42,652 nt of DNA, taken from the NCBI GenBank assembly GCA_937129385.1, contig CAKZNC010000144.1:1-42652 (forward strand), in the 5' to 3' direction. Position numbers and translations under genes: made by a program. Origin of the DNA: an uncultured Bacteroidota bacterium (GTDB lineage Bacteria > Bacteroidota > Bacteroidia > Bacteroidales > GCA-2748055). Below the pieces are notes generated by a model. The model had not been told where the DNA came from. It searched no databases and was given only the letters and a program-made list of their open reading frames with translations. Of this stretch, positions 16,796 to 42,652 are shown one piece after another; positions within the stretch are counted from its first letter, which is position 1, and every line of letters begins with the position of its first letter.

Positions 16796-16830
16796 AACTA
16801 ACTAACTAACTAACTAACCAACTAACTAAC
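16796..16830. repeat. AACT tetranucleotide microsatellite
   Basis: About eight tandem AACT units with one AACC variant, immediately after the terminator U-tract and before a run of seven A. It lies in the 3' space between two convergent genes. Slippage-prone, with no visible coding or promoter role. Confidence 0.9.
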
Positions 16831-16887
16831 AAAAAAACTATACTAACTAAGACTCATTACCTATTCGTTCCTGCTTGTGACAGGGTG

Positions 16888-39030: not shown

Positions 39031-39050
39031 CTGCGGAATTCATTCCGCAG
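39031..39050. repeat. Perfect 9-bp inverted repeat downstream of dihydroorotase
   Basis: CTGCGGAAT and its exact reverse complement ATTCCGCAG are separated by two bases. It lies about 45 bp after the dihydroorotase stop, next to the heptamer array. The leftward transcript would form a hairpin, but A/U-mixed sequence, not a U-run, follows, so terminator function is uncertain. Confidence 0.7.
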
Positions 39051-39055
39051 CTACG

Positions 39056-39095
39056 CCACACTCCACACTCCACACTCCACACTCCACACTCCACT
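39056..39095. repeat. Heptamer tandem repeat, CTCCACA type
   Basis: Five consecutive 7-base units (39061-39095, the last CTCCACT) preceded by a partial unit CCACA. The array runs into the stop codon of the dihydroorotase gene (39094-39096), so it begins exactly at that gene's end, as the array at 1-54 lies at the end of the DUF5916 gene. Confidence 0.95.
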
Positions 39096-40437
39096 ATCTA
39101 TCAAATTCCAGTCTTTCACCTCTGATCATTTCATTGAAGAGTCCGTTTTTAAATACCAGTTTTCCGTTGACGAACGTATGAGTCACCCGGGTATGAAACT
39201 GTTGTCCTTCAAGCGGGGTCCATTTACATTTGTACCAGGTATTCTTGTGTGATACTGTCCATTCCCATTCCGGATCGATCAGCACCAGGTCGGCTTTCAA
39301 TCCGGGTCGTATAAATCCACGGTCTTTCACCTTATATAACACGGCGGGAGCATGGCACATTTTTTCCACCACCTTTTCCACGCTCATTTTCCCCAGGTGT
39401 GCAAATTCCATCATGGCGGTCAGGCTATGCTGCACCATTGGTCCGCCCGAAGGAGAGTCGAAATACCGGCTCTGTTTCTCTTCAATGGTATGTGGAGCAT
39501 GGTCGGTTGCCACGATATCCAGTCGGTCGTCCAGCAGGGCGTTGAAGAGTGCATCCCGATCGGATTCCTGTTTGATCGCGGGGTTCCATTTGACCAGCGG
39601 ACCTTTGGCTTCGTAGTCCTGGTCGCTGAACCAGAGGTGATGCACGCAAACTTCCGCTGTGATCTGTTTGTTTTGTGTGTAGTCTCCTTTTTGAAACAAT
39701 TCGAGCTCTTTCTCGGTGCTTATATGCAATACGTGGAGCCTTGTATTGTGTTTTCGGGCCAGTTCCACGGCCAGGGAGGAAGATTTATAGCACGCCTCGG
39801 CGGATCGGATAAGCGGGTGTGCAGAGACGGGAATAAGGTCGCCGTAACGTTCTTTATAGATCTCTGTGTTTTTCTGAATGGTCGCTTCGTCCTCGCAATG
39901 TGTGGCCACGAGGGCAGGGGATTCGGCAAAGATCTTCTCCAGGGTTTTCCTGTCATCCACCAGCATGTTCCCGGTGGAGGATCCCATGAAAACCTTTACA
40001 CCGCAGTTTTTACCGGGGTCCAGTTTTTTAACCTGGTCGATGTTGTCATTTGTTGCTCCCAGGTAAAAGGAGTAATTGGCGAATGATTTTATGGCTGCCC
40101 GGTCGTATTTTTTTTCCAGTTCTTCGATGGTTGTGGCCTGGGGTTTTGTATTGGGCATTTCCATGAAGGAGGTGATCCCGCCTGAAACCGCAGCTTTGGA
40201 TTCGGTAAAGATATCGGCCTTGTGTGTAAGTCCGGGTTCCCTGAAGTGGACCTGGTCGTCGATCACGCCCGGTATGAGGTATTGTCCGCCGGCATCGATC
40301 TCATCGGCATATTCCGATTCCACCTCGGGTTGACCTTCCGAGACGGCCTGGATGATCCCGTTCCGCACAACCACGTATCCTTCAATGATGGTGCCTTCAT
40401 TTACGATCCGGGCATTTTTTATAAGGTAATTGTTCAT
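39094..40437 (-). CDS. pyrC: Dihydroorotase, class I type
   Basis: A 447-residue cytoplasmic enzyme of pyrimidine synthesis (N-carbamoyl-aspartate to dihydroorotate). The amidohydrolase frame is complete: VHFREPG (His64), likely carbamylated Lys148 in GVKVFMGS, metal ligands His180 (VATHCED) and His238 (LHVLHIS), and Asp312 in ATDHAPH. The usual first histidine of the HxH motif is replaced by Gln62 (DDQVHFREPG). I recall this Gln in other Bacteroidota dihydroorotases, so it is probably a lineage variant rather than a defect. The next gene (GT2) ends 100 bp upstream on the same strand. The stop codon overlaps the end of a heptamer array. Confidence 0.93.
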   Translation of the reverse strand: MNNYLIKNARIVNEGTIIEGYVVVRNGIIQAVSEGQPEVESEYADEIDAGGQYLIPGVIDDQVHFREPGLTHKADIFTESKAAVSGGITSFMEMPNTKPQATTIEELEKKYDRAAIKSFANYSFYLGATNDNIDQVKKLDPGKNCGVKVFMGSSTGNMLVDDRKTLEKIFAESPALVATHCEDEATIQKNTEIYKERYGDLIPVSAHPLIRSAEACYKSSSLAVELARKHNTRLHVLHISTEKELELFQKGDYTQNKQITAEVCVHHLWFSDQDYEAKGPLVKWNPAIKQESDRDALFNALLDDRLDIVATDHAPHTIEEKQSRYFDSPSGGPMVQHSLTAMMEFAHLGKMSVEKVVEKMCHAPAVLYKVKDRGFIRPGLKADLVLIDPEWEWTVSHKNTWYKCKWTPLEGQQFHTRVTHTFVNGKLVFKNGLFNEMIRGERLEFDR

Positions 40438-40537: not shown

Positions 40538-41269
40538 CTACCTGGAGTACCTGGTGAACCAGCTGTTGACCTTCAGTCGGATCACCCCCCATATTGCTTC
40601 ATGGACGATTCCACCGCTCATCTTGGAGCTACCCTCTCTGCGGTCGGTGAAAATGATCGGGATTTCCACCACGTTGAATTTATATTTCCAGGCGGTGAAT
40701 TTCATTTCGATCTGGAAAGCATATCCCTTGAATCGGATCCGGTCAAGGTCGATGGTCTTCAGCACTTCGCTGCGGTAGCAAACGAATCCTGCTGTGGCGT
40801 CGCGAATCTTCATCCTGGTGATCAGGCGGACGTATACGGAGGCAAAGTAGGAGATCAGCACGCGTCCCATGGGCCAGTTGACTACATTGACCCCGGAGAC
40901 ATACCTGGATCCGATGGCTACATCGGCCCCCTTTTCCTCGCAGGCATTGAACAGGAAGACCAGGTCATTTGGATCATGTGAGAAATCGGCATCCATTTCA
41001 CATATATAGGAATAACCTTTGTCGATGGCCCATTTGAATCCTTTGATGTATGCAGTTCCCAGACCGAGTTTTCCTTCTCTTTCCAGAATATGGAGCCGCC
41101 CGTCGGCATTGGCCTGTAACTCTTTGACGATTGCGGCGGTTCCGTCCGGTGAGTTGTCATCAATGATGAGCAGGTCGGTCATGATCTCCAGTCCAAGCAC
41201 GGCCCGGATGATCTTCCGGATGTTCTCCTTTTCATTATAGGTAGGGATGATGACCAGTTTATTGCTCAT
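40538..41269 (-). CDS. Dolichol-phosphate mannosyltransferase-like GT2
   Basis: A 243-residue GT-A glycosyltransferase of family 2. The nucleotide-sugar fold is clear: IIPTYNEKENI, DDNSPDGT (37-44) and the DxD motif EMDADFSHDP (Asp93, Asp95), plus AGFVCYRSEVL and RFKGYAFQIEMK, typical of polyprenol-monophosphomannose synthases. There is no C-terminal transmembrane segment, so it is the short soluble or membrane-associated form. It would transfer a sugar from GDP- or UDP-donor to polyprenyl phosphate, feeding glycan or lipoprotein/protein glycosylation at the membrane. It may share a transcript with dihydroorotase (100 bp gap). Donor and acceptor are inferred from family only. Confidence 0.9.
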   Translation of the reverse strand: MSNKLVIIPTYNEKENIRKIIRAVLGLEIMTDLLIIDDNSPDGTAAIVKELQANADGRLHILEREGKLGLGTAYIKGFKWAIDKGYSYICEMDADFSHDPNDLVFLFNACEEKGADVAIGSRYVSGVNVVNWPMGRVLISYFASVYVRLITRMKIRDATAGFVCYRSEVLKTIDLDRIRFKGYAFQIEMKFTAWKYKFNVVEIPIIFTDRREGSSKMSGGIVHEAIWGVIRLKVNSWFTRYSR

Positions 41270-41337: not shown

Positions 41338-41449
41338 CAGTTAAGAGTTAAGAGTGGAGAGTTAAGAGAGGAGAGTCACCAGCCTTCAGCCGTCAGCCTT
41401 CAGCCGTCAGCCTTCAGCCGTCAGCCTTCAGCCGTCAGCCGTCAGCCAG
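41338..41449. repeat. Mosaic heptamer array, 16 units
   Basis: 112 bases that divide into exactly sixteen 7-base units with no slip. The first six are of the GAGTTAA kind (CAGTTAA, GAGTTAA, GAGTGGA, GAGTTAA, GAGAGGA, GAGTCAC). The next ten switch, in the same register, to alternating CAGCCTT and CAGCCGT, ending CAGCCAG. It lies between the GT2 gene and the rRNA leader. Confidence 0.95.
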
Positions 41450-41704
41450 ACGATGCCTGAATAAGGTTGACTGATTTAAAGTATAGCACGAAGCGATAAA
41501 GTCTAAGTATGCAATATGCAGCATGCGCTTTGAAGGCATGATTATCTGAAATCCCCGAATCGTTTTTTGCGCTGTAAACCTGAAATCAAATATCTCCTTC
41601 AACTGTTTACTGATGATCAGCGCGCGAGCCTGGTAAGCCTGGGTGATGCTTTGTGCTTTCTCTGGGGCCCTGTTTAGAAAAGACTCATGATCGAAGCGAA
41701 CACC
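41435..41704 (-). pseudogene. Unrecognised open frame without clear start, between two heptamer arrays
   Basis: Between stop codons at both ends there are 89 open codons on the minus strand. The frame begins inside one heptamer array and ends inside the other. The inferred peptide has a protein-like N-terminal half (RFDHESFLNRAPEKAQ, then ITQAYQARALIISKQLKEIF, predicted helical). The only internal ATG codons lie in the second half (MPSKRML), which would give just about 34 residues. I recognise no family. It could be a remnant of a gene cut by the repeats, or simply a chance open frame. No ribosome-binding site was seen. Confidence 0.25.
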
Positions 41705-41842
41705 CTACACCTAACACCCTACACCCTACACCTCGCACCTTACCCCTCACCCCTGACGGCTGATCCCTGAAGACTGAAGGCTGACGGCTGAAGGCTGACG
41801 GCTGACCCCTGACCCCTGACCCCTGACCCCTGACGGCTGATT
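41703..41842. repeat. Mosaic heptamer array, 20 units
   Basis: 140 bases that divide into exactly twenty 7-base units in one register. They progress from CCCTACA and CCTAACA, through CCTCGCA, CCTTACC and CCTCACC, to GCTGAAG/GCTGACG alternation, then CCTGACC and a final GCTGATT. Nearly all fit the pattern nCTnAnn. The segment 41774-41805 is the exact reverse complement of 41386-41417 and of 41400-41431. Confidence 0.95.
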
Positions 41843-41930: not shown

Positions 41931-41960
41931 TTGCGGGTAAAATAAAAGCATCTATATTTG
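41931..41960 (+). promoter_or_regulatory. rRNA operon promoter P1
   Basis: TTG (41931-41933), exactly 19 bases, then TATATTTG (41953-41960), followed by CAGCCCG. A perfect Bacteroidota primary-sigma promoter, about 415 bp before 16S rRNA. Confidence 0.85.
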
Positions 41961-41996: not shown

Positions 41997-42134
41997 GTGT
42001 TGCATGATGGCAGGTAAAGAGGGGAAGTGATCCCCGGGTGTTGAACGGGATGAAGGCAGTTGAAAAACGACCAATCTCTAAAACGCTGGGAATCAAGCCT
42101 GAGAAAAAAAGTTTGATTTTTTTTCGATGAATGT

Positions 42135-42166
42135 TTGGAGAATAGAAAATTTACTGCTTATCTTTG
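42135..42166 (+). promoter_or_regulatory. rRNA operon promoter P2
   Basis: TATCTTTG (42159-42166) followed by CATCCG, with TTG at 42135-42137, a 21-base spacing that is two more than optimal. Weaker than P1 and P3 on paper. Confidence 0.55.
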
Positions 42167-42221
42167 CATCCGCTTTTGGGAAAACAACGTGGTTTTCGAG
42201 CGAGTTTTTTGAAAGATTTTT

Positions 42222-42251
42222 TTGGACGAATTAGATTAATAACTATCTTTG
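42222..42251 (+). promoter_or_regulatory. rRNA operon promoter P3
   Basis: TTG (42222-42224), exactly 19 bases, then TATCTTTG (42244-42251), followed by CAGTCCG. The promoter closest to 16S rRNA, about 125 bp upstream. Confidence 0.85.

Positions 42252-42375: not shown

Positions 42376-42652
<277 letters not shown>

Follow-up and report, generated by a model that had tools for sequence, protein, structure and literature searches.

We analysed a stretch of 42,652 nucleotides (hereafter the window) from an uncultured Bacteroidota bacterium of the order Bacteroidales (contig CAKZNC010000144.1, assembly GCA_937129385.1), in which two arrays of tandem seven-base units lie upstream of a ribosomal RNA (rRNA) operon. 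Cut into sevens, array 1 (41338–41449) contains exactly 16 heptamers and array 2 (41702–41841, minus strand) exactly 20, with a spacer of 252 nt between them (41450–41701). The 5' part of array 1 (41338–41379, plus strand) comprises the six heptamers CAGTTAA, GAGTTAA, GAGTGGA, GAGTTAA, GAGAGGA and GAGTCAC, the plus strand being the purine-rich one, and the 3' part (41380–41447, plus strand) alternates CAGCCTT with CAGCCGT in a 14-nt higher-order repeat. Read on the plus strand, array 2 passes from CCCTACA through CCCCTCA and CTGACGG/CTGAAGG to CTGACCC; it is oriented opposite to array 1, and the pair faces inward. Self-match at a shift of seven bases reaches 0.76 in array 1 and 0.78 in array 2; multiples of seven aside, other shifts give 0.14–0.33. 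The 7-base register is thus held across the changes of unit. The heptamers are uninterrupted, unlike CRISPR arrays with their regular unique spacers, and neither GAGTTAA nor CAGCCGT units contain a GG tract of the G-quadruplex (G4) type.

The two arrays share inverted sequence. A 32-nt segment of array 2 (41774–41805, minus strand) matches two segments of array 1, 41386–41417 and 41400–41431, exactly as their reverse complement, and a looser inverted match of 53 nt at 91% identity joins 41386–41438 to 41753–41805. With RNA parameters, the predicted fold of the array region has an energy of -175 kcal/mol, versus -131 ± 16 kcal/mol for shuffled sequences. A first-pass annotation of the window, made from its letters without database searches, had reported the 16 and 20 in-register heptamers, the 32-base inverse and the position upstream of the rRNA operon; each of these observations holds, with the gap now counted as 252 nt.

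On the left, the start codon of a putative glycosyltransferase open reading frame (ORF; 40538–41269, minus strand), identified by reading its sequence rather than by a family search and divergent from the rRNA genes, lies 69 nt from the 5' edge of array 1, whose GAGTTAA end points away from this ORF. On the right, array 2 ends ~90 nt before the first of three putative rRNA promoters on the plus strand, which we assigned by eye from the Bacteroidota-type consensus: promoter 1 (41931–41960, TTG ... TATATTTG), whose sequence is kept in a relative of the same genus (G003), and promoters 2 (42133–42166) and 3 (42221–42251), both TTTG ... TATCTTTG and both conserved in the family. The 16S rRNA gene starts at 42376 on the plus strand, and the window ends inside it at 42652. 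Two further heptamer arrays lie in the window, one of GAGTTAA units at the contig start (1–52, plus strand) and one at 39051–39100 (minus strand; CCACACT on the plus strand), where sense-strand AGTGTGG units begin at the stop codon of an ORF (39094–40437, minus strand).

Period 7 is special across the source genome. We surveyed 491 kb, taking contigs by number without seeking arrays beforehand, and found 24 arrays of period 7, three of period 14 and at most two of any other period; first-order (dinucleotide) shuffles, three times 265 kb, gave zero arrays of any period. At this density, roughly one array every 20 kb, the 4.28-Mb genome would hold some 200 intergenic arrays. Many contigs start or stop within an array, so the assembly probably breaks at arrays and their lengths may be compressed. 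A second survey, covering 816 kb partly picked for arrays, yielded 84, of which 74 are mostly noncoding, though ORFs cover ~92% of this DNA. Many dispersed, mostly noncoding arrays of tandem 7-nt units fit the class of heptanucleotide long simple sequence repeats, also called short tandemly repeated repetitive (STRR) sequences. Seven is also the commonest period in stretches from Alkaliphilus and from one Acidobacteriota, one Planctomycetota and one Prevotellaceae genome. Other periods do occur locally: the sole clear non-heptameric array in the window is one of AACT units (16796–16850), and octamer arrays stand in a same-genus genome (G001; L117:11355-11599) and in Winogradskyella species (L210, L189), where they lie close to heptamer arrays.

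Comparison with relatives indicates when and how the arrays arose. The ORF flanking the rRNA operon is kept in same-family genomes, and in eight syntenic family genomes (G003 and seven others) the intergene carries no arrays at all, in or out of a 7-base register, although its rRNA promoter region is recognisable by eye. Because syntenic relatives have the same flanks without arrays, the array-bearing stretch is lineage-specific. Another same-genus genome, G001, had zero period-7 arrays in the 80 kb checked. On the question raised by the first-pass annotation, whether arrays are inserted or expanded in place, aligned flanks are informative at 39051–39100. There the orthologous gene of G003 reaches AAAGTG at its stop codon, and the source genome goes on as (GAGTGTG)n; the alignment favours growth of the array in place at the stop codon.

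The arrays tend to follow a positional rule. We oriented them by composition alone, using the purine/G-rich strand, and counted an edge if it lay at most 15 nt from the stop codon of an ORF (length-based calls of at least 100 aa rather than those of a trained gene finder). In a mixed-phyla set of 80 loci, picked for GAGTTAA content and not for position or orientation, the stop-adjacent edge was the 5' rather than the 3' edge of that strand by 55:10 (p 1e-8), and in the source genome by 21:6. Within the mixed-phyla set, GAGTTAA lay on the sense strand in 36 of 40 arrays at most 15 nt from a stop codon. Convergent intergenes, considered separately, gave 15:2 for GAGTTAA arrays in other genomes, a count that gene direction cannot skew there. 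The purine/G-rich strand is thus shown to begin at the gene edge and to head away from the gene, the abutment being tightest at stop codons.

The rule extends to pairs. Arrays of opposite orientation within one intergene faced inward rather than outward by 18:0 in the mixed-phyla set (p 8e-6) and by 9:2 in the source genome. The latter was 8:0 when CAG-type arrays were oriented from their stop-adjacent copies, which is mildly circular, and we therefore use the composition-only counts. At one locus (L252:6476-6548), AGGAGTT units switch in register to TTAACTC units with no spacer, forming a facing pair. In the window pair the outer edges lie toward functional neighbours and the arrays point inward, but the fit is less clean than elsewhere. 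The first-pass annotation had thought a long cruciform or hairpin possible. In the source genome and in others, however, opposite arrays that share an intergene face inward even when their units are not complementary, so the inverted pair need not be a cruciform signal.

These counts bear on a rival account, that heptamers expand by ordinary symmetric replication slippage, as in the view of Mrazek 2007, and selection clears them from genes, leaving position and orientation uninformative. Such slippage would explain the dominance of period 7, the intergenic location, the 14-nt higher-order units of array 1 and the lineage-specific distribution of the arrays. It predicts parity between 5' and 3' abutment and between inward and outward pairs, which is far from the ratios observed, and array-free intergenes show no matching left-right purine asymmetry. 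We consider this account somewhat unlikely.

We tentatively favour, at rather less than even confidence, a reading in which the window pair consists of heptanucleotide long simple sequence repeats from a lineage-specific burst, extended by polar 3'-end growth through 7-nt slippage from gene edges. Arrays would arise in place as the purine-rich strand slips back 7 nt at its 3' end, again and again, during DNA synthesis (replication restart or gap filling) that starts in conserved gene-edge sequence and moves on into intergenic DNA free of constraint. Each flank would contribute its own 3' end, the top strand from the left and the bottom strand from the right, so that two arrays in one gap would be inverted and would face inward. 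The step of 7 nt would reflect the length of duplex held by the polymerase, after Mrazek et al. 2007. For the window pair, growth would have started on the glycosyltransferase side for one array and on the rRNA-promoter side for the other, with no need to invoke a role in rRNA expression. Back-slippage of the 3' end is itself something we infer from these patterns.

Candidate enzymes and processes were also considered. The 99.7%-complete source genome gave no match to Ku and none to the RVT_1 reverse transcriptase family; we therefore rejected Ku end joining and reverse transcription by a telomerase- or retron-like RVT_1 enzyme as sources of the arrays, and neither is needed. Loss of SbcD was weighed as a cause of the burst, and all relatives gave sub-threshold SbcD matches only. 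Rho-dependent termination, which calls for C-rich RNA after genes, was rejected as well, since next to stop codons the purine/G-rich strand is the sense one.

Alternatively, the heptamers may be selected as RNA. Purine-rich units following a stop codon would then act in the 3' untranslated region, either by binding a protein, one per heptamer, or through hairpins of facing pairs, with selection keeping the sense orientation. The stop-adjacent, sense-strand bias, the occurrence of the same heptamer across many phyla and the stronger-than-shuffled predicted fold of the window pair are all in keeping with such an element, and regulatory roles have been proposed by MacGregor 2015 (PMC4679880) and by Rehm 2015 (PMC4692102), the latter finding most repeats transcribed. 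The same gene ends lack arrays in relatives, however, units vary between genes, many facing pairs have non-complementary units, and Rehm 2015 found no functional gene class. On balance, an RNA element seems unlikely to us.

Some sequence beyond the heptamers also recurs. An array-edge motif in the window (41446–41477, plus strand; CAGACGATGCCTGAATAAGGTTGACTGATTT) recurs at five further loci of the genome, next to arrays whose heptamers differ; as a 30-nt motif, AGACGATGCCTGAATAAGGTYGACTGATTT, it marks the 3' edge of arrays at six loci (the window, L051:69, L061:12736, L063:1326, L145 and L147), next to CAGCCGT, CAGTCGG/CAGTTCG or CAGTAGG heptamers. A seventh locus, L146, has the motif without an array, and the motif core was not found, at up to two mismatches, in the three same-genus genomes. 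A hairpin, TGCGGAATTCATTCCGCA (39032–39049), adjoins the array at 39051–39100, and a near-identical palindrome lies beside arrays at five other places (L067, L068, twice in L159, and L037). More generally, the recurring palindromes TGCGGAATTCATTCCGCA, GCCCTTCGACAGGCTCAGGGC and CCCCGGGTGCCCTTCGGTTACCCGGGG, which resemble repetitive extragenic palindromic (REP) sequences, crowd the array-bearing intergenes of the source genome.

This recurrence could be read as the debris of a dispersed mobile element, with heptamer arrays as its terminal inverted repeats and REP-like spread by a Y1 transposase; the edge motif and the palindromes would be further pieces of it. The edge motif at six loci, the palindromes beside arrays, the terminal-repeat look of the inverted pair and one Y1_Tnp-family gene in the genome speak for it. 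Yet facing arrays do not share their spacers: edge motif aside, the window spacer (41450–41701) is not repeated among the matches found in the genome and is missing from syntenic relatives, and matches elsewhere in the genome are limited to arrays plus up to 30 nt beyond, short of the shared interior expected of a mobile element. Unrelated units in unrelated phyla give the same positional pattern, and one array appears to have grown in place at a stop codon. We rejected the Y1 transposase as a spreader, given that array-poor G001 has a better match than the single one here. Remnants of a mobile element are accordingly very improbable.

The choice of unit is narrow. Only 24 canonical units account for the 84 arrays, and three families supply most of them: AACTCTT (GAGTTAA) with 19, ACGGCTG (CAGCCGT) with 16 and ACTGCCG (CAGTCGG) with 9. 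A fixed unit order, GAG-type before CAG-type, was considered and dropped; it seemed strict among single-orientation composites, but array 2 of the window deviates. None of the 27 other genomes of the family has GAGTTAA arrays, even with three mismatches allowed across four units, and of 296 genomes sampled from the phylum only 5 (the source and four others) contain three exact units. Among the matches listed, four exact units were found in Bacteroidota, Cyanobacteria, Acidobacteriota, Planctomycetota, Firmicutes, Gammaproteobacteria and others. Twelve of these genomes had 9 to 371 matches apiece, and the reversed-heptamer control gave mostly few or none. The unit is heavily arrayed in Firmicutes, Acidobacteriota, Planctomycetota and Cyanobacteria; tens to hundreds of arrays occur in Alkaliphilus pronyensis (G341), two Nostoc genomes (G335, G346), an Acidobacteriota genome (G337) and a Prevotellaceae genome (G340). 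The first-pass annotation had proposed a mechanism acting on length seven and not on one sequence; the special status of seven stands genome-wide, and neither outcome named there as refuting (same-flank relatives with arrays out of register, or period 7 no commoner than other periods) turned up, but the few units in use and the recurrence of GAGTTAA, hardly shared by its reversal, show that sequence matters too.

A broader version of polar growth would be a general bacterial process that works without reverse transcriptase or Ku: one-way 7-nt growth of purine-strand repeats from gene edges, so that each flank of an intergene could grow an array of its own and facing arrays would always be inverted inward. 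It would amount to telomere-like growth within chromosomes, active in scattered lineages and with a preference for the same heptamers from phylum to phylum. We regard this as speculative and improbable.

Several observations weigh against polar 3'-end growth by slippage. Divergence within arrays marks no growing end (mismatch 0.057 in the 5' half versus 0.059 in the 3' half, p 0.39). In fresh, unselected stretches of six other array-rich genomes the polarity was weak, if in the same direction, on small counts (stop-adjacent edges 15:7, p 0.13; pairs 3:0). Neither array of the window pair touches a stop codon, and the spacing leaves room for promoters; array 1 is not purine-rich in its CAGCCGT half, which had to be oriented from GAGTTAA and from CAGCCGT copies next to stop codons. 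Slippage alone, finally, accounts neither for the shared 30-nt edge motif nor for the recurrence of GAGTTAA across phyla.

Heptanucleotide repeats are on record in cyanobacteria, Xanthomonas, Beggiatoaceae and five Bacteroidetes (PMC4679880, PMC4692102), although the first-pass annotation knew of no described system like this in Bacteroidota. MacGregor 2015 (PMC4679880) reported TAACTGA repeats in Beggiatoaceae, Cyanobacteria and the five Bacteroidetes; like ours they are intergenic, and some Bacteroidetes carry several heptamers per intergene while close relatives have none. In Beggiatoaceae these lie mostly just upstream of start codons, whereas the arrays here use other units and mostly adjoin stop codons. 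Rehm et al. 2015 (PMC4692102) studied intergenic GGGNATC repeats of Xanthomonas and Nostoc, which sit almost exclusively closer to the ORF on their 5' side; those following a stop codon are on the coding strand and those preceding a start codon on the non-coding one. Inverted repeats were noted there too for GGGNATC and GGGGA(C/T)T, and the same kind of rule, with the G-rich strand near the 5'-neighbouring ORF, holds statistically in our 21:6 and 55:10 counts. Theirs is a single G4-forming unit with four copies preferred, whereas ours are many non-G4 units in longer arrays from several phyla, with a count of inward pairs. The polarity rule is thus already known for one G4-forming unit, GGGNATC; what is added is its extension to non-G4 units and further phyla, the tight abutment on stop codons and the inward-facing pairs.

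Three other systems bear comparison, so far as the accounts available describe them. Cyanobacterial STRR heptamers (Calothrix; cited in PMC4692102) likewise include several different tandem heptamers per genome, and gene-edge position and polarity are not among the features described in that citation. Chloroflexus (GATAGRA)n satellites (PMC6749651) are also dispersed arrays of one heptamer in one genome; they involve a single unit, and the features described in the part consulted include no positional rule. Mrazek 2007, as cited in PMC4679880 and PMC4692102, found heptanucleotides over-represented among long simple sequence repeats and proposed the polymerase-contact length as the reason for seven; the cited summaries mention no unit-independent strand polarity.

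That bacteria have an excess of heptamers has been on record since 2007 or earlier and still lacks an explanation. If the polarity holds for different units in unrelated phyla, simple symmetric slippage is ruled out, and the question gains a testable handle: which 3' end grows, and at which replication or repair step. Inverted array pairs can then be by-products of growth from two flanks rather than designed hairpins, which bears on terminator and cruciform readings of such sequences.
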